Shown: one piece after another, positions 27,471 through 45,271 of the stretch | Position numbering within the stretch: position 1 is the first letter of the stretch | How the letters are laid out: each line of letters begins with the position of its first letter | Assembly (NCBI GenBank): GCA_021773835.1 | Contig: JAJFJQ010000051.1 | Span: forward strand, 248,001 to 312,000 | Reading direction: 5' to 3' | Origin: Gammaproteobacteria bacterium | GTDB taxonomy: Bacteria > Pseudomonadota > Gammaproteobacteria > Ga0077536 | Length of the DNA stretch: 64,000 nucleotides | The notes under the pieces: generated by a model | Database searches by the model: none | What the model saw: the letters and a program-made list of their open reading frames with translations, nothing else | What the model was told of the DNA's origin: nothing | Translations under genes and position numbers: made by a program

Positions 27471-30400
27471 ATGTCAGATTGTTACCGAAAGGCGAAATTG
27501 ATCCTATTTTCGCTTTGCCTGTTCATTTTTGTCGGCGTGGCCATGGCGCATGACAATGACTTGATTAGTATCTCTGGAGATTTGGCGCCAAGTGGTGACG
27601 GGACCTTTGCCTCGTTTGAGCTGCCGCGATTGTCGACCTCAGGGCGTGTTGCTTTCATTGCTGATCTAATCGGTTCGTCGAGTACGCAGGGTATATTTGG
27701 CGAGGAGTTCGTTGGCACCCCGGCCTCCTTCTTTGGTTCTTCGTTCACGAAATCATTGATCGAGTTCGCGCGAACGAATCAGGCGAGCCCAGATGGTGAC
27801 GGGAGTTATGCGGGGTTTTCGTCGCTGAGCTTTTCCGATACTAATTCTTCCGCGGGATTCGATAGCTCAACGACTGCGTTTAACGCCACGTTTGCCGGGT
27901 CGTCCAGCACTCAAGGAATTTTACATCGGAATCAAGCACCAATCATGGTCGTGGCCCGCGAAAACGCTCCAGTCCCAGACGATTTTGAAGGGCGAACTTT
28001 TACCGGTTTCAGCGCACCGGTAACGAATGATAGTGGGTTTCTTCCGACAATCTTCCAAGGGGACTCCATCGCCGCGATCCCCCCGGCTCGGACTGCGATT
28101 TATCAGGCTGACAATTTCAGTAGTTTTGAATTTGTAGGTGACAACTTTTTTACATCTTCTGGATTGAGTGGAACGCTGACGAATATCGGTCAACCGGCTG
28201 TTGGTTATAGTGCAACAGAGTTCCGAGTGGACACTGCATTCACAGCGGACATCGTAGCACCCGTTCCCGATGGCGGTGAAACGCACGGCGTGTTTTTGAA
28301 CGGCACGTCCGGCTTGCAGCTGATCGCATTCAACAATCCAACCGGAACAACTATCTTCGGGCAACCAACGGTGAGCGACACGGGTGGTAGCTTCAAACGG
28401 ACGGTTATCGATGGCGGCACAACGCATTCAATCGATTTTTGGTTGAATCTTGGTGGGTTTCCCACCTATCTGGGAGCACTTGTTTCTACTGGAGTCGCCG
28501 CCGCGGATGGTAATGGTGTGTACGAGGATTTTGGCGATCCTTCCATCAGTAATGCCACCGAGACGCAGCAATTCGGTACAAGTGCTTTTCACGCGACTCT
28601 GAGTGGTACTGCGATGGGTGCGATTGACGATCAAGGTATCTTTCAAGCACTCGACTCGGCCTTCCGAACCATCGTCCGCACCGGCGATAATGTCCCCGGA
28701 ACAGCCGTAACGTTCGAGGATTTGGGTAATCCTGTTGTGAATGACCCCGGGGCGGTGCTGTTCTCTGCGGCGATTGGGAATGGTTCCGGTGGTCAGCTAC
28801 AAGGCGCGTTTATTTCTGACGGCAATGCGTTTGCAACGGTCGCGTTACAGGGAGAGGCGCGTGACGGTTCTGTTATCACCAATATTTCTTTTATCGATTC
28901 GCCGGATATTGGCGGCGTGCAGGCGTTCAATGATTTTGGACAGGTAGCCTACCGTGCGGACCTAGCGGACGGACGCCAAGGGGTATACCTATTTACGCCG
29001 ACGCTGGAGTTCGCACAAATCGGCAGTGGCGAATGGGGCGACGTGGGAAACTGGTCGTTTGGACTGCCGCCCGGCAGGCCCCATTCGGTGTTTATCATTC
29101 CGGACAGCGGTACTGGGGCATCGGTAGTCGATCACAATATGGAAGGGTTTGAAGATTTCACCACGGTAAGAAATTTATCGCTTGAACCAACGGGGGGAGC
29201 GACTGCGGAACTCAATCTTAATAAAGTCGATGCACCGCTTTTTACTGGAGATAATGTGCATTTCACGGTAACCGACGCAATGACTATTGGCACGAATGCG
29301 ACCGTCAATGTTAACGGGGGTGTCCAAGCCTTCGTTGGGTCTTTGAATATGCAAGGTGGCACGATTAACGGGGTCGCGGGATTAGCTTCAGGTACCGGTG
29401 GAACGATTTTCGTTAATGCCATACATGGGTTTGGGACCGCGCATCATGTCGATATAGCGGACTCGTTCTTCTTCGGACTGGCAGGAGGAACGATTGAGTC
29501 AGCGGGTGGGGTGCTGGATGTTAAATTGGCCAGAAGTGGCATTGAAGGACTAAATCTAACGGTCAATCCTGGTTCGACCCTGATGCTTCGGGAGAGTAGT
29601 GGCGGACGGGTAGACATTGAAGACGCATCGAGCGTGGAGTTGCTCGGCGGTACGCTGGACGTACCGGACGGTATTGGTGTTGACGGTGATAGCACGCTGC
29701 ATGGATTCGGTACGGTGCATGGGAGTTTCGTGGGCGGCTTCGATTCAACGATTGATGCCGATGGTGGCACTTTGACGATCGGCGACAATACCGATTTCAA
29801 CGGCTTTAACACCCAAGGCGACATCATTGTCCGATCTGGAGCGGAACTAGCCTTAGAAAATAAGATTGGCCCCGCGGCATTGGGTCGTCTGACGCAATTG
29901 GAAGGTGGCGACCTGAGTTCCGCTACGGGTGTATTTCTCGCTGGAGGAAAAACCCTTGTTGGGCACGGTAACGTCAACGCAGCGGTTGCTGCGCAAATTG
30001 GGTCAACCATTGTTGCAGAAGGTGCGCTGAGTCTCGGCGATGCGAGCGCGGTCGATGGCTTTTTTAGCGACGGTGGCCTGCATACGGACACGCACACCGT
30101 GACGATTCACGACGCAAATACGGCCGTACTGGGATCGGTGACACACTTGGGAGATGGGGTAAGCGGCGGAACTTTGGCCGCTGGTGGTGCGATTCCGGGT
30201 GATAGCCTCGCCCATTTCTTCATCGAAGAAGGCAAGAATCTACTCGGTCGCGGTAACGTAAGCGGAAATGTAAAGAACAACGGCGACGTTAGCGGCGATG
30301 GGGTTGCGCTTGACGAGCGGTTGATCTTTGATGCGGGCTGGAAAGTATCGGGTAAGGGGACGTTTGAGAATACGCTTGTACTCGGCATCTTTGCGCCGGG

Positions 30401-30830
30401 GGAGAGTCCTGGAATTACGAGCGGTACGAATCAGGCTTTCGGCGGGACCGTCCAGTTTGAACTCGGCGGTCTGCTACCGGGCTCGGGCTCAGACAATCAC
30501 GATCAGATCAACGATTCTGCAAGCATTCTGTTGGTTGGCGATCCGATCTTGTCGATATTGTCGTTCGATGGATTTATCCCAGAGGTCGGCGACATGTTTA
30601 CGGTGATGACTTGGGAGCTTGGTTTGATCGGTAGCTTTGGGGATATTGTGATCGATCCGATATTTGCGGCCAGCGGTCTGAAGTTTGACTTGATATTCAC
30701 AGATATTGCCGGTAGTGGCAGTCTAAGCTTAGTAGCGGCGCCCGTCCCGATTCCGGCGGCGGGGTGGCTGTTTGGCATTGCTATCGCTAGCTTGTTTGCC
30801 CGTCGTGGCCGCTGGAAAGGAAGGCGATAA
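27471..30830 (+). CDS. large exported PEP-CTERM/VPIPA-type surface protein
   Basis: 1119 residues. A signal peptide (LILFSLCLFIFVGVAMA) precedes residues about 25-500 made of divergent repeats of about 75 residues, each with a DGxGxYxxF element, a GxxAFxA strand and SSTQGIF-like ends; these resemble the tandem beta-propeller-like repeats of PEP-CTERM proteins. A GEWGDVGNWSFGLPPGRP segment then opens a long right-handed beta-helix-like region (T-x-x-G-x-GNVN repeats) to about 1010. The C-terminus is VPIPAAGWLFG, a hydrophobic stretch and RRGRWKGRR, the exosortase sorting tail. Probably a secreted or surface structural protein; it has no enzymatic motif. It sits behind a sigma-54 promoter and ends before a terminator at 30971. 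Confidence 0.85.
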   Translation: MSDCYRKAKLILFSLCLFIFVGVAMAHDNDLISISGDLAPSGDGTFASFELPRLSTSGRVAFIADLIGSSSTQGIFGEEFVGTPASFFGSSFTKSLIEFARTNQASPDGDGSYAGFSSLSFSDTNSSAGFDSSTTAFNATFAGSSSTQGILHRNQAPIMVVARENAPVPDDFEGRTFTGFSAPVTNDSGFLPTIFQGDSIAAIPPARTAIYQADNFSSFEFVGDNFFTSSGLSGTLTNIGQPAVGYSATEFRVDTAFTADIVAPVPDGGETHGVFLNGTSGLQLIAFNNPTGTTIFGQPTVSDTGGSFKRTVIDGGTTHSIDFWLNLGGFPTYLGALVSTGVAAADGNGVYEDFGDPSISNATETQQFGTSAFHATLSGTAMGAIDDQGIFQALDSAFRTIVRTGDNVPGTAVTFEDLGNPVVNDPGAVLFSAAIGNGSGGQLQGAFISDGNAFATVALQGEARDGSVITNISFIDSPDIGGVQAFNDFGQVAYRADLADGRQGVYLFTPTLEFAQIGSGEWGDVGNWSFGLPPGRPHSVFIIPDSGTGASVVDHNMEGFEDFTTVRNLSLEPTGGATAELNLNKVDAPLFTGDNVHFTVTDAMTIGTNATVNVNGGVQAFVGSLNMQGGTINGVAGLASGTGGTIFVNAIHGFGTAHHVDIADSFFFGLAGGTIESAGGVLDVKLARSGIEGLNLTVNPGSTLMLRESSGGRVDIEDASSVELLGGTLDVPDGIGVDGDSTLHGFGTVHGSFVGGFDSTIDADGGTLTIGDNTDFNGFNTQGDIIVRSGAELALENKIGPAALGRLTQLEGGDLSSATGVFLAGGKTLVGHGNVNAAVAAQIGSTIVAEGALSLGDASAVDGFFSDGGLHTDTHTVTIHDANTAVLGSVTHLGDGVSGGTLAAGGAIPGDSLAHFFIEEGKNLLGRGNVSGNVKNNGDVSGDGVALDERLIFDAGWKVSGKGTFENTLVLGIFAPGESPGITSGTNQAFGGTVQFELGGLLPGSGSDNHDQINDSASILLVGDPILSILSFDGFIPEVGDMFTVMTWELGLIGSFGDIVIDPIFAASGLKFDLIFTDIAGSGSLSLVAAPVPIPAAGWLFGIAIASLFARRGRWKGRR

Positions 30831-39669: not shown

Positions 39670-40527
39670 CTAGATCTTCCCGCGCTCTTTCATATAACGA
39701 ATGATCGGAGCAGGTTCAGGTGGGTGCCAGCGCGTTTGCTTTGGGTCTTCGTGCCAGACGAAATCAAGGTGGGCGACGTGACCAGGATCTTTAGCCGCAG
39801 CGAAAATCGCTAGCGCCGCGCGCAGAACCGCGGTTTGCGTAGCACGATCCGCAACCTCGCCAAATGGCCGGCCAAATGGGTGTTCAACCGCCGCAACGCG
39901 GGGCATACCGAGTGCGCGTTGGAATTCCCAAATTAAATTAACGGTCACCGTCGGGATCCCGGCATCTTCTATTTTCCTCGCGACCAGTCCAACGGACCGG
40001 CAACAATCGGGTCAGACGGGTGCAAGGATGGCGAGGTCGACCTCGTCGTCGTGCATCGCCTGGGCGATTTCCGGTCCACTCACATTTTCAAGCGTACTAC
40101 TGTCTTCGCCTTGAAAACCCATGATCGAGTAGTGATTCGGCGCCGACGAACCGACAACGCCGGCCGCGACTAAATCCGCGAGTGGTTGCAACGGCAGCGC
40201 AACGTTGATGTCGTTTTTGATGTAGTCCGTATCGATGTGTAAGTGATTGACCGCGACATCCGCACTCGTTGCATCATGTCTAATTTTGCGCCAACTCGGA
40301 TCACCCCAGACTGGATTGTTTCGCTCGGCCTCCATATCGAATGGTGCGTCGTCTAGCATGGATATACCTGCCGTCGTCAGTAAGGCAACGCGTGAATCTG
40401 CAAGCGCTTTAGCGGGAATCGCCCACGGAATTGTTGCAGGCGGCACGGTATTGTCGATCGCCTCTAGGATAATTTTTTTAATCAGCCTGCCGGTGAAGCG
40501 AAAGGCATCAACTTGGTTGTCGCTCAT
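39670..40527 (-). CDS. GrdB-like selenoprotein with in-frame UGA (Sec172)
   Basis: One reading frame of 286 codons from ATG 40527 (GAGG 7 nt upstream) to the stop at 39670, interrupted once by TGA at 40014-40012. Translation before it ends ILAPV and after it goes on PDCCRSVGLVARKIEDAG without change of frame. The U-P-D-C-C context is that of the glycine/sarcosine/betaine reductase selenoprotein B family (GrdB-related oxidoreductases), where Sec lies near Cys residues. A 17-nt hairpin begins exactly 11 nt after the UGA, as in E. coli fdhF. Last gene of an operon with an LLM flavoprotein (12 nt upstream) and an amidohydrolase. Reaction unknown; reductive cleavage is the family's theme. Confidence 0.82.
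39984..40014 (-). promoter_or_regulatory. SECIS-like element with its UGA
   Basis: On the coding strand: UGA, 11 nt, then CCGGUCC-GUU-GGACUGG, a 7-bp stem including one G-U pair and a GUU apical loop. The stem pairs only as RNA of this strand, because the complement would have an A-C mismatch. The 11-nt spacing and 17-nt length equal those of the minimal E. coli fdhF element, which carries G and U in its loop; the bulged U of that element is not evident here. Confidence 0.7.
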
Positions 40528-40539
40528 TGCGGTCCTCAA

Positions 40540-41613
40540 TCAAAGCTTACAAATTATCTCGCTACCGAATTCGCGGATCATCTCGCGCCCATCGGTACCG
40601 CAAACGTTTAGCGCGATATTTGTCACGCCAGCATCTTCGAGCATATGGATGCGATCGATGATCTCGCCAGCGGATCCGGTTAGCGTGGAAATCTTCACCA
40701 ACTCATCGGTAACGTATTTTTCTTCTCCGTCACGCAAAAAGAGCAGGTGACCCAAATGCATTTCTTGGAATCGCTTCTCAAGTGGCGTTTTCATCTTCAT
40801 GATCTGTTCTTCGAAATAACGCTTAGCAAGTGGTGCTACCGCAGGCGGTGCGAAAGGGCCGATCCTCATTTCCTTCGGATCCCAATTCGTATGCAATAGC
40901 AATATTGCATATGGCCCGACCCGGCTCAGCACGCGCGGTGATGTCATCGATTCGCCGGGACGTAGTATGCAGCCCGTGGTGAGGTTGGTTGTGTAGACCG
41001 AATCCATCACACGTCCGGCATCTTTTGCCGCTTGCCCGATCTGATTGATGCTGCTTGAGATGTATTCTCCGTCGAGGCCGATCGTGACCCAGCCGTCGGC
41101 GAGTTCTCCCACCATCTTGAGCGCTTTCGGACCATTCGAGGCCATGTGGATCGGTATCGGATCGGCGACGTTGATGTAGCCGGAATTTGGGTGTAAGAAT
41201 TTGATAGAGCGCTCCAACTCGCCCTCGCGATACGTTGCCTCGCCGCCCGCGAGTAATTCTCTGATAACGCCAATATGCTCACGCATCGTTTTTAACTTGG
41301 CCGGCGGCATACCCATGACGTTGCGGCCGGTAAACCCTGTGCCAACACCCAAAATGACCCGTCCAGGCGCGAGTTCGTTAATCGTCGCGATCGAGTGGGC
41401 TGTCACGGGCGCGATGCGATTGCCGAGAATTGCGACCAGCGGCCCGATCTTGAGATAGCGGGTATGCTCCGCGGCCAATGCCATGCTGGCATAGACGTCG
41501 CTGTAGCACATGTGTGAGTCGTAAAACCATGCGTGCGTGAAGCCGTAGTCTTCGGCCATTTTCGCATCGTGGTAGGCGCGGATATAAGAAGGAAACGTGA
41601 TCCCAAAATCCAT
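40540..41613 (-). CDS. LLM-class flavin-dependent oxidoreductase (operon with selenoprotein)
   Basis: The 357-residue protein is a luciferase-like TIM barrel: DFGITFPSYIRAYHDAKMAED at the start, then THAWFYDSHM, RVILGVGTGFTGRNVMGMPP and IPIHMASNGPKALKMVGELADG. The pattern is that of the coenzyme F420- or FMN-dependent reductases and monooxygenases of the methylenetetrahydromethanopterin-reductase-like group. AGGAG lies before the ATG, 15 nt after the amidohydrolase stop; the selenoprotein start is 12 nt downstream. Which flavin it uses cannot be read from the sequence. Confidence 0.88.
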   Translation of the reverse strand: MDFGITFPSYIRAYHDAKMAEDYGFTHAWFYDSHMCYSDVYASMALAAEHTRYLKIGPLVAILGNRIAPVTAHSIATINELAPGRVILGVGTGFTGRNVMGMPPAKLKTMREHIGVIRELLAGGEATYREGELERSIKFLHPNSGYINVADPIPIHMASNGPKALKMVGELADGWVTIGLDGEYISSSINQIGQAAKDAGRVMDSVYTTNLTTGCILRPGESMTSPRVLSRVGPYAILLLHTNWDPKEMRIGPFAPPAVAPLAKRYFEEQIMKMKTPLEKRFQEMHLGHLLFLRDGEEKYVTDELVKISTLTGSAGEIIDRIHMLEDAGVTNIALNVCGTDGREMIREFGSEIICKL

Positions 41614-41628
41614 TGATGTACTCCTAGT

Positions 41629-43290
41629 CTAGCGTTGCTTTAATAACATCTTCCCAGCGCGAACCCCGTTTGGCTGACCGTCCTCAAGCGCTATTTCGCC
41701 ATTGACGATGACGACGTGTACGCCTTTAGCAGCGACGAAAGGATCGTAGTAGTCTGCCTCGGTTCGATATTCCGCCGGGTCGAAGATTGTGATGTCGGCC
41801 TTATAGCCGATCCCGATCCGCCCCCGGTCACTTAGCCCAAGTCGATTTGCCGGCAAGCTCGTCATCTTGCGAACGGCTTCCTCCACCGAGGTGCCGTAGT
41901 TGATCAGGTTTCTGTAGAACTTTGGAAATGTGCCGTACATCTGCGGCCAGGGAGCGACACTCGGATCGGTAACATCGGTCGGAATATCGAGACAGGGCAT
42001 CGCCATCGGATGATTGCTGGCCTTGGCGATATTGTCCTCACCGCCGAGGAATGGCGCAACGAGGCCAGGCTCGACGTCTTTTGATAACAAGTCCGACCGC
42101 TGTAGGACGATATCGAAGAATAGATCAATAGGGTCGACACCCTTCGCCGCGGCAAGTTCGTTGATCGTTTTGTCTTCAACCTTGTCGTCACCGGTGTTGA
42201 TTAGCCAGATATGGCCCGCGTCGGTGATGTACTCTTCGTAGAAATCACCAACCTTAGGAAAATTCTCTGTTACCGCCTGCTGTACCTCACCCTTAAAGTC
42301 GTCATCGTCGATATTTTTTAAGAAACTTTCGTAATCTTCTGCGCCCTCGAGGTGGGTTTCGTAATAATCGTTATTACACAGAAAATAGAAAAAATGGCGC
42401 ATTGCGTCGTTACGAAAACACCAATCGGAAAACTGCATCACGTCGAACGAGATATCTGCACCACGATTGCGTGCCGCTTCGAGTGCACCGAGTGCGATTG
42501 GTAGATCTTTGAAACGCGACTTACCTGGTGGGTTGATGTGTGGAATGTGCACCGGGATCCGGAATTTCTCGCTAATGGCTCCGAGCTTGCAGATATCGTC
42601 CTCGTCGATTAGGTCGCTGATATGGGCGTAGATGCCGCCTTCGTACTCGGCGACGATCGCCGCGAGTTCAGAGATCTCATCGTAGTCCGCAAACCGACAG
42701 GGTGGATAGCTCAAACCCAGCGATAATCCGAACGCACCCTGGCGCAGACCTTCTCGGGTCAGCGCCTTGATTTGTTCGTACTGAGCTTTGCTTGGTGCTT
42801 CGTCTCGCCGCAAACCAACTTTCCAGCGGATCGTGCCATGCCCAATCAAAGGTACTACGTTGATACCGACCGTGTTCTTGTTTACGGCTGCGGCGTATTC
42901 CGTTAACGACGACCAATCATGGGGAAATTCGCGAACTTTTTCAGAATAGGTGACGAGTTCTACTTCAGGGTTGGTCGCCGTATGCTCAAGCCAGGTGTCC
43001 TTATCTGGGTAGGGCGAGAAGCTACAGTTGCCGCACATGCTGGTCGTGATTCCTTGAGTGATCCAGGGTTGCATGTCAGGTCGAAAAAATACAATGCCGT
43101 CGACGTGATCATGTGGGTTTACGAAACCCGGAGCGACGGTGAGGCCTTCGGCATTGATGACTTTGTCTGCCGCGACAGCGAGGCCGCGACCAATCGATTT
43201 GATTTTGCCATCGGACAAAAGGATATCGCTGTAAAACCACGGGTTGCCGGTTCCGTCGACGATTCGGCCATTTTTGATCAAGATATCCAT
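41629..43290 (-). CDS. amidohydrolase, N-acyl-D-amino-acid deacylase-like (first gene of selenoprotein operon)
   Basis: 553 residues with the D-aminoacylase layout: MDILIKNGRIVDGTGNPWFYSD, metal motif NPHDHVDG, CGNCSFSPYPD containing the zinc-linked Cys, and the end SDRGRIGIGYKADITIFDP. It resembles the protein at 16334 but has HDH in place of HTH and a longer acidic insert (about residues 300-370). GGAGG precedes the ATG by 6 nt. It heads a tight three-gene operon with an LLM flavoprotein and a GrdB-like selenoprotein, suggesting that amide release feeds a redox or reductive step. Substrate unknown. Confidence 0.85.
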   Translation of the reverse strand: MDILIKNGRIVDGTGNPWFYSDILLSDGKIKSIGRGLAVAADKVINAEGLTVAPGFVNPHDHVDGIVFFRPDMQPWITQGITTSMCGNCSFSPYPDKDTWLEHTATNPEVELVTYSEKVREFPHDWSSLTEYAAAVNKNTVGINVVPLIGHGTIRWKVGLRRDEAPSKAQYEQIKALTREGLRQGAFGLSLGLSYPPCRFADYDEISELAAIVAEYEGGIYAHISDLIDEDDICKLGAISEKFRIPVHIPHINPPGKSRFKDLPIALGALEAARNRGADISFDVMQFSDWCFRNDAMRHFFYFLCNNDYYETHLEGAEDYESFLKNIDDDDFKGEVQQAVTENFPKVGDFYEEYITDAGHIWLINTGDDKVEDKTINELAAAKGVDPIDLFFDIVLQRSDLLSKDVEPGLVAPFLGGEDNIAKASNHPMAMPCLDIPTDVTDPSVAPWPQMYGTFPKFYRNLINYGTSVEEAVRKMTSLPANRLGLSDRGRIGIGYKADITIFDPAEYRTEADYYDPFVAAKGVHVVIVNGEIALEDGQPNGVRAGKMLLKQR

Positions 43291-43518: not shown

Positions 43519-44373
43519 TTATGTAGGTTCGCGACGGCGGACGAAAGCTAAGAGCCCCGCGATCCCGCTTATCGCGAGCGGCAACGCAGCCGGGATCGGC
43601 ACTGGTGATGGCACCACGCTAATGGTGATCGTGGCGATACCATTGGCGTATTGGTCCAGGTCATTAAAGTTTAGCGCTGATATATCGATCCCAGGAGGGG
43701 TCAAAAACCCAGCGAATGGATCTGCGGCTACAACGTTAGTAATAACGCCACCTTCTACGACACCACCCGGGGCATCTCCGGCAGGGATCCCTGCAATTGG
43801 ATTACCTGGCGAGAATGCAAAATCGTTAACTTCGGTACCAGCATCATTCACCGTCCCGATTGTTCCGATATTGAAGCTGATCGTAGTGGCAGCGCCGCTA
43901 AGTAGCGTGCTTAAGTCATGCGCAAATGGGTTGCCGTTGGCAACGAAGAAATCGTTGCTCGGTAACACCATCGCGGCATATGAGAAATATGTGTTTGCTC
44001 CGCCATCATCGACGTTAAATACTTGAGACGCCGAACCTCCGGCCATAATAGGACCGCCTGCCGCAATTGCGCCCTGGACGCGACCGTCAATTGGGTCGCC
44101 GATCAGTGTCCCAGCAAAGACATCCGAGATTGGTCCCGTCTGTCCCAGTTCGGCGAGCAACTCTAATGAGCCCGCCGCAGGGCTGCCGCCGTCGTAGCTG
44201 TCGAATGTGCCATTGTGAAATCCGACCCATACTGGGGTGAGTGCCACGCCGCCAGCCGGTGAATTGTTCTGGATGGTCACTTCGAGTTGGACGCCTGCGG
44301 CGAGGCTATTATTCGTTGTCAAAGAAAACCCGAGGGCAAATGCAAAACAGGTTACGGTCGATTTAATTTGCAT
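43519..44373 (-). CDS. exported spondin-domain protein with VPIPA sorting tail
   Basis: 284 residues. A signal peptide (CFAFALGFSLTTNNSLAAG) precedes a spondin N-type domain recognised by VTIQNNSPAGGVALTPVWVG, then FHNGTFDSYDGGSPAAGSLE and LAELGQTGPISDVF. The C-terminus is PVPIPAALPL, a hydrophobic stretch and VRRREPT, an exosortase-type (VPIPA) sorting tail. Spondin-domain proteins in bacteria are secreted and of unknown role; an adhesion or matrix function is inference. GAGGAG precedes the ATG. About 95 nt upstream lies a sigma-54-like GGGAAC/TTGC pair, with a spacing one base too long. Confidence 0.85.
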   Translation of the reverse strand: MQIKSTVTCFAFALGFSLTTNNSLAAGVQLEVTIQNNSPAGGVALTPVWVGFHNGTFDSYDGGSPAAGSLELLAELGQTGPISDVFAGTLIGDPIDGRVQGAIAAGGPIMAGGSASQVFNVDDGGANTYFSYAAMVLPSNDFFVANGNPFAHDLSTLLSGAATTISFNIGTIGTVNDAGTEVNDFAFSPGNPIAGIPAGDAPGGVVEGGVITNVVAADPFAGFLTPPGIDISALNFNDLDQYANGIATITISVVPSPVPIPAALPLAISGIAGLLAFVRRREPT

Positions 44374-44537
44374 TAGTTGCTCCTCTTTGCGCCTGCGGCA
44401 GCGTTAAAAAGATAGAATTTTCGAACGGCGCTCGCCGGAGGTGGCGAGGTCGCGACGTAAGAGGCGAGCAAGGTGGTGTTCCCGGACCTTTTTAGTACCG
44501 ACATTACAGATCTCCTAACTTTGGTTGGTATTGTTAT

Positions 44538-44556
44538 CGTCAGGCACCGCCTGACG
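44538..44556. repeat. perfect 8-bp hairpin between nrsF-like and spondin genes
   Basis: CGTCAGGC-ACC-GCCTGACG has perfect arms. It lies in the 244-bp gap after the anti-sigma gene and before the spondin gene. No T-run follows on either strand, so it may stabilise mRNA ends or be a binding site rather than a simple terminator. Confidence 0.45.
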
Positions 44557-44617
44557 GATGCGATTACGCACCTAACCAATACGAACGGAGATCTAAAAAC
44601 GATGCGCTTCGAAGAAT

Positions 44618-45271
44618 TTAGTTTGAACGCAAGAAGAAGTAGCCAACAATGCCGCCGAAACCCGCTAGGGCCAAGCCGGGCAGGATATGAAACATCAGCA
44701 TGTGGGGAACCACATACATACAGGCTAACTGCATGAGCAGCGCAGGAATTGCACCTGCAGCAAGACCAATCATCGCGCCACTCGCCGTGCCTCGCAGTGG
44801 GTAGAGCGCCCGCAGCGCAACTATTCCAGCCAGCAGCGCTGGTAAACCATATAAGAATACTTCGAGATAGCAGTGATCGCGTTTCCCAGCCATCGAAGGC
44901 TCAAGTGCCGGTTCGGATAGGCCATAGACGTAGAAACTGACCCACACGACTGTAATACCGAGCGGTAGCCTAAATAGGTTCCAAAGGCCCTGGTTACTCG
45001 GTATTGCTGACCGATATGCAACCACTCCTACAGCAATAATTGCGATGCAGCCGAGTATGGTTTCAGTGGCGAACTGGGGCACGGACAACAGCTGCTGTGA
45101 AAATCCGGGTCGAAACGGTGCCCTCAGCACCATAAAGATGATCGAAGCAGCGAAAGCAACTAAGAGCCACAGCAAACTCCGGACGAGAGTCTTGCCGGGA
45201 TTCCGAACGGGTTCAAGATCGGATACCAGATCCGTGATCAAATCGCTTCGTTGCTTGCCGTTACCGCTCAT
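44618..45271 (-). CDS. nrsF: NrsF-like (DUF1109) six-helix anti-sigma factor
   Basis: 217 residues with a soluble N-terminal 30 residues (SDLITDLVSDLEPVRNP) followed by six membrane helices. The cysteines in RDHCYLEVFLYG (Cys134) and MQLACMYVVPHM (Cys184) sit where NrsF of Caulobacter has its two sensing cysteines, and the LPALLAGIVALRALYPLRG loop is typical. Such proteins hold their ECF sigma at the membrane until metal or oxidative stress touches the cysteines. Its ATG overlaps the stop of the sigma gene by 4 nt, so the two are made together. Confidence 0.85.
   Translation of the reverse strand: MSGNGKQRSDLITDLVSDLEPVRNPGKTLVRSLLWLLVAFAASIIFMVLRAPFRPGFSQQLLSVPQFATETILGCIAIIAVGVVAYRSAIPSNQGLWNLFRLPLGITVVWVSFYVYGLSEPALEPSMAGKRDHCYLEVFLYGLPALLAGIVALRALYPLRGTASGAMIGLAAGAIPALLMQLACMYVVPHMLMFHILPGLALAGFGGIVGYFFLRSN

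Follow-up and report, generated by a model that had tools for sequence, protein, structure and literature searches.

A PrdB-like gene with an in-frame UGA, predicted to encode a selenoprotein, next to a luciferase-like oxidoreductase gene in a gammaproteobacterium

The analysed window, a stretch of 64,000 nucleotides from a gammaproteobacterial genome, carries on its minus strand a PrdB/GrdB-like selenoprotein gene (39670–40527) comprising 285 codons and a stop, with the predicted selenocysteine (Sec) at residue 172. The frame running from 40527 to 39670, stop included, has a sole interruption, a TGA at codon 172 (40012–40014, minus strand) within the motif UPDCC, where the translated residues read ILAPV-U-PDCCRSVGLVARK, and the sequence GAGGA is found 5 nt ahead of the ATG. 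Family homology is present on either side of this TGA, and the description in the earlier note of one frame continuing through a single TGA with family-like sequence on both sides was borne out when the frame was re-read. Directly upstream on the same strand, after a gap of 12 nt, is a gene for a luciferase-like (LLM class) oxidoreductase (40540–41613; PF00296, 133 bits), whose best NCBIfam match is TIGR03842 at 140 bits, below the cut-off of 295. A further 15 nt upstream lies an amidohydrolase gene (41629–43290, minus strand; PF07969, 84 bits; NF006560, 132 bits, below the cut-off of 340). Both upstream genes run in the direction of the selenoprotein gene with gaps this short, so that the predicted operon is plausible. 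Elsewhere on the minus strand of the window, at 43519–45271, a spondin-domain protein is encoded next to an NrsF-type anti-sigma factor.

A 17-nt hairpin of 7 bp begins 11 nt after the UGA, at 40000–39984 on the minus strand, with the loop GUU at 39991–39993 and an eighth pair, G-U, at its base; it is assigned as the core of the SECIS element from its fold and from covariation, and confirms the hairpin described from the letters alone. The minimum free energy structure predicts an extended stem-loop spanning 39976–40010 on the same strand, the lower stem of which is less conserved. The 42 nt following the UGA fold with −16.6 kcal/mol (z = −2.64), a value equalled by 2 of 200 shuffles, and when each of the 1880 TGA triplets in the window was scanned permissively, 35 had a stem of at least 8 pairs and 2.6% folded as well. 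Open frames of at least 100 codons flank a TGA on both sides at seven places in the window, and among these a stem of at least 8 pairs is found only at the selenoprotein TGA. Another of the seven, at 30109 on the minus strand, is flanked by open stretches of 107 and 220 codons and is followed by a hairpin of 7 bp; it is antisense to a 1119-aa ORF (27471–30830) and probably reflects chance. By itself, the hairpin is weak evidence, and it is conservation across homologues, not the hairpin alone, that lifts the Sec site above chance.

Homologues were sought in 58 genomes, consisting of the source genome and its relatives, and were found in 29 of them at 59 places. Exactly one TGA is present at 53 of the 59 places and none at the other six; no place contains more than one TGA or any TAA or TAG, and the frame is thus intact at other positions throughout. 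The Sec site itself could be read in 37 distinct sequences, where the codon is TGA in 33 and a Cys codon (TGC/TGT) in four. Of these sequences, 34 belong to the 59 places (30 TGA, four Cys), while for the remaining places the TGA count comes from the stop tally, the site itself being unread; one sequence that ends before the Sec site (L062) was dropped. TGA at the site also occurs in members from Pseudomonadales, another gammaproteobacterium and Myxococcales, and four further Cys members were found in other families of the class. Across 369 genomes drawn from the class, including the source genome, eight have a family match at E 1e-20.

The UGA could instead be an ordinary stop, with the downstream frame belonging to another gene or to a pseudogene in decay; in favour of this, hairpins of equal quality follow roughly 2–3% of window TGAs by chance. 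In comparison with the 82%-identical orthologue of genome G003, however, pN/pS is 0.118/0.583 before the TGA and 0.068/0.705 after it, indicating purifying selection on both sides, and amino-acid changes are rarer in the part beyond the TGA than in the part preceding it. The close pair G021/G015 is the one comparison that leans toward an ordinary stop: pN/pS is 0.013/0.145 before the TGA and 0.030/0.079 after it, so that the post-TGA part is less constrained than the pre-TGA part, on few changes. Against this stand the distribution of TGA and Cys codons at the site and a complete set of Sec machinery in the genome (see below), and an ordinary stop is left with a vanishingly small probability.

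Conservation of the hairpin was evaluated in an alignment (A2) of 26 of the 33 Sec sequences, from which near-copies were mostly omitted. In the core helix, 87% of the alignment cells are paired, compared with 17–41% when the helix is slid by 1–3 columns and 65% for the lower helix. Double-changed cells number 15 versus 3.4 (sd 1.5) in shuffles, none of 500 shuffles reaching 15, a cell count that is inflated by shared ancestry; counted by pairs, a double change is seen in three, which is not above the shuffles (226/500). There is one clear covariation, at column pair 19/27 (AU in 20, UA in four, GC in one and other in one of the 26 sequences), in which a change at position 1 of a Ser/Thr codon is matched by a position 3 change at the Gly/Ser/Cys codon three codons' start later. 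In 18 of the 26 sequences the two bases next to the loop do not pair, indicating that many relatives have a 5-nt loop, and in three loci (L059–L061) the core helix is poor, with 4–5 of 8 pairs kept. Of the 8 core pairs, seven are retained in two of the four Cys genes and five in the other two, with pair 19/27 broken in three of these few sequences. A stem-loop directly after the UGA with a G in a small apical loop, the SECIS definition in the wording of PMC1088965, is present at the locus. Rfam produced no match in the window at gathering scores; the model RF00031 gave no hit either, a negative of no weight given that it hit none of the controls.

The source genome (98% complete, 74 contigs) encodes the machinery for Sec insertion. 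The genes selA (599 bits), selB (421 bits) and, downstream of both, tRNA-Sec (63 bits, UCA anticodon) form one locus on the contig of the selenoprotein gene, approximately 145 kb from it, and selD (295 bits) is on a different contig. All four genes that the earlier note proposed looking for are therefore present, and its suggestion that the organism makes selenocysteine is supported. Downstream of selC, L046:9073–10278 presumably encodes an IS110-type transposase. The selD gene (L010, C55:135839–136750) lies inside an 804-aa open frame, a length that would agree with the fusions of Ndh and SelD reported in PMC2398784. Three UGSC-family selenoprotein genes are also present (L046:2367–2894, which is the same as L080, together with L079 and L081; contigs C47 and C68), with a single TGA in each, located at the UGSC motif; the family cut-off is reached by only one of them, and selA has one of the three some 1.9 kb upstream of it.

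A single UGA per gene would fit recoding of any kind, including readout as another amino acid such as Trp or general readthrough. Such a reading is at odds with the tRNA-Sec with UCA anticodon that follows selA and selB, with the alignment of the site to the TGA of clostridial prdB and to Cys codons in four relatives, and with conservation of the SECIS-type hairpin, and it is extremely improbable. Taken together, these sequence data indicate that the UGA of this gene is almost certainly read as selenocysteine. From the anatomy of the site and its conservation, SelB charged with Sec-tRNA(Sec) would bind the hairpin just past the UGA, and the ribosome would then insert Sec172 in place of stopping.

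The protein had been named GrdB-like, and it does match PF07355 (GRDB) at 32.8 bits (gathering cut-off 22), in the C-terminal part of the profile. The nearest name, on the other hand, is PrdB: the best NCBIfam match is TIGR04483 (PrdB) at 137.2 bits, below the equivalog cut-off of 300 and more than twice the 46–52 bits of the Grd models (TIGR01917, 46.8 against a cut-off of 602). GrdB as the closest name was consequently rejected (rounded, 137 versus 47–52 bits). In an alignment (A3) of 26 of the 37 distinct sequences, all 26 members match TIGR04483, and no other family has a better E-value among these members. A profile comparison (hhalign) with PrdB of Terrisporobacter aligned 224 columns at 34% identity (probability 100%, E 5e-42), spanning PrdB residues 14–237 of 241, and the Terrisporobacter prdB gene has a TGA at the position aligned with that of the window gene. 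The AlphaFold model, which is of high confidence (pLDDT 93.9, pTM 0.93), places Sec172 between a strand (165–169) and a helix (173–188). A sequence search of the PDB gave no clear relative, the best of its 10 distinct matches below E 1 standing at 0.08, and Foldseek gave nothing at E 0.001 or better. The VIA rows consist of generic Rossmann-like and periplasmic-binding folds with a best Z of 8.0; structure comparison thus linked the protein to no fold of known function. A racemase-like fold, an idea taken from the motif, had no Foldseek match and there was no racemase among the 50 matches listed, which does not count against such a fold. The protein is a single-domain, Sec-containing homologue of PrdB.

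In a tree of 43 rows, from which L073 was omitted as it gave no usable row, the window protein groups with those of genomes G003, G007, G015 and G021 (support 98/92). A trio from Myxococcales and Pseudomonadales adjoins this subclade, and all eight proteins are Sec forms. The deep joins of the tree are on long branches and its root is arbitrary; the distribution of Sec and Cys on it requires two changes. The source genome has five family members spread across the tree, four with Sec and one with Cys, the paralogues of the window gene being L042, L043, L045 and L044 (contigs C47, C25 and C7; three TGA, one Cys). The presence of five diverged members in one genome suggests substrate specialisation. 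Members with the motif UPLDH (L018, L021 and L041) have no Cys at the UxxC position.

An LLM gene is found within 0.3 kb at all five subclade loci (L012–L016) and at one of 25 other family loci (L017–L041), as judged from flanks of up to 1.5 kb, several of them shorter; at L013 the LLM gene is represented by its truncated end alone. The corresponding Fisher p of 4e-5 is too small, given the relatedness of the loci and the truncation of several flanks. At the loci of G007, G015 and G021, the adjacent LLM gene is divergently transcribed and its product has approximately 24–25% identity to the window LLM; those of G021 and G007 pass the F420-LLM model TIGR03619 (235.6 and 231.0 bits, cut-off 166.9), while the window LLM stays below its cut-off (140 against 295 bits). 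The LLM neighbour thus recurs in the subclade, with the subfamily differing between loci. Among other members, L061 has an LLM gene about 1 kb away, and the flanks covered for L059 and L060 contain none. Outside the 30 counted loci, an LLM gene adjoins each of the Cys paralogues L044 and L053, and no LLM gene was found within about 6 kb on each side of L042, L043, L045, L051 and L052. In the source genome, all 103 candidates that were evaluated scored as LLM genes, so that their number is at least 103; with so many LLM genes, related loci and differing subfamilies, the link may be incidental.

The genome also encodes a bifunctional CofGH of the FbiC type (L082:208–2664; 1147 bits, cut-off 1018), making synthesis of the F420 precursor probable. 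With CofGH and at least 103 LLM genes, this gammaproteobacterial genome probably represents an F420-producing lineage. A role of the amidohydrolase as a conserved partner is not supported: the window gene is unmatched in the orthologue flanks covered for G021, G015 (a 4-kb contig) and G007, and the G003 contig stops within the LLM gene. Of the operon originally proposed with both neighbours, the arrangement in the window stands as plausible, and the amidohydrolase is not seen in the flanks covered at the orthologues. A different amidohydrolase (PF04909) is encoded just before the paralogue at L042.

D-Proline reductase is known from anaerobic amino-acid fermenters. PF09338 is the family to which the pyruvoyl subunits PrdA and those of GrdE type belong, and none of nine genomes yielded a match to it, a search that a very divergent form could escape. 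As PF09338 matched none of the 14 standard controls, a prdA-bearing record was added, and the Terrisporobacter prd plasmid gave three matches. Haem-copper oxidase subunit I (COX1) is encoded in four of the five genomes that carry the window subclade and is absent from the search result for the fifth, G015 (72% complete). Its presence makes oxygen respiration likely and a Stickland setting unlikely, and the host is probably an oxygen-respiring gammaproteobacterium. The original observation that the context is unlike that of the anaerobic glycine reductase is supported by both results.

These findings bear on whether the protein is a classical subunit of D-proline (or glycine/betaine) reductase with its pyruvoyl partner encoded elsewhere. 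The homology to clostridial PrdB over 224 columns with the Sec aligned, and the match of every A3 member to TIGR04483, which has the best E-value across these members, agree with a classical subunit. Yet PF09338 was detected in the control plasmid and in none of the nine genomes, the score is less than half of the PrdB cut-off, and haem-copper oxidases in four of five genomes do not suggest Stickland fermenters, so that a classical subunit is highly unlikely. The orphan, pyruvoyl-free, LLM-linked setting argues against the D-proline reductase label, and the core reading, insertion of Sec into an orphan PrdB homologue, is likely to be correct.

In glycine and sarcosine reduction, as described in PMC10838667, the pyruvoyl carbonyl forms a Schiff base with the substrate, which is then attacked by Sec. 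The pyruvoyl subunit is what activates the substrate in D-proline reductase as well as in glycine reductase; with no such subunit, the substrate must either already be an activated compound or receive its activation from a different enzyme. Sec172 could then be the nucleophile on an already activated substrate, the Se-substrate adduct being resolved by Cys175 or Cys176 (of U-P-D-C-C) to give a Se-S bond that cellular thiols would re-reduce, and the neighbouring LLM flavoprotein, perhaps F420-dependent, might act on the same compound. This chemistry, with Sec as nucleophile, resolution by Cys and the LLM acting on the same compound, is put forward tentatively. Resolution by a nearby Cys would not be family-wide and must differ in the UPLDH members, which have no Cys at the UxxC position.

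The same motif raises the question of whether the protein is instead a thiol-disulfide or peroxide-type redox protein, serving general redox balance with no bond cleavage. UxxC is typical of redox selenoproteins according to PMC1088965, and UPDC fits it; the UPLDH members without that Cys and the five diverged members in one genome, suggestive of substrate specialisation, point the other way, and a general redox role appears unlikely. Returning to bond cleavage, a broader proposal, speculative and on balance doubtful, is that pyruvoyl-free PrdB-like selenoenzymes of marine Pseudomonadota, mislabelled as proline reductase, work with F420-dependent LLMs in oxygen-respiring cells to cleave or reduce a natural product or osmolyte, and that the five members in the source genome (four Sec, one Cys) serve different substrates. 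If oxygen-respiring gammaproteobacterial members do work with no pyruvoyl partner, the D-proline reductase reading of marine selenium use would be wrong for them, and a common marine selenoenzyme family would be left without an assigned reaction, for which the LLM/F420 context would be a concrete starting point.

Sec-containing 'PrdB' in marine metagenomes is itself already known and has been reported since 2005. The Sargasso Sea set includes 42 Sec-containing PrdB sequences (PMC1088965), the GOS data contain 235 Sec and 110 Cys forms (PMC2398784), PrdB-type genes make up 6.4% of selenoprotein genes in an updated GOS set (PMC9402790), and D-proline reductase appears among the selenoprotein families of a 2026 review (PMC13188914). 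The apparent novelty lies in the setting of an orphan protein with no pyruvoyl partner and a link to LLM genes; in the titles and abstract openings of one open-licence library, there was no orphan PrdB in Proteobacteria and no F420 or LLM together with a selenoprotein. The passages on PrdB in PMC1088965, PMC2398784 and PMC13188914 likewise describe neither a missing PrdA nor an LLM link for these bacteria. The metagenomic proteins (PMC1088965, PMC2398784) are likewise PrdB (pfam07355 in PMC2398784) with UxxC from marine bacteria; the passages on them take them as proline reductase by homology, with the pyruvoyl subunit and an LLM neighbour undiscussed.

Clostridial PrdB (TIGR04483) shares with the window protein the 224-column homology at 34% identity and the aligned TGA. 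Terrisporobacter prdB sits with prdA, prdC and prdD, whereas no PF09338 protein was found here, and the window protein has additional residues before and after the PrdB-like part. GrdB (PF07355, TIGR01917) has the Sec region in common with it; its match to the GrdB profiles is confined to their C-terminal part, and no GrdE-type PF09338 subunit was found in the nine genomes. The UGSC family (NF041046) also has Sec, and three copies in the source genome; kinship through a shared fold is not supported, a profile comparison giving only 17% probability over 52 columns. FarB, proposed to cleave C-F in fluoroacetate dehalorespiration, differs in having a FarE partner and a radical-SAM neighbour and in belonging to an anaerobic synergistete (PMC10838667). 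It is nevertheless a GrdB-like Sec protein proposed to act on another substrate, and its partner FarE, which is described as being without the cysteines for pyruvoyl formation, provides a precedent (PMC10838667).
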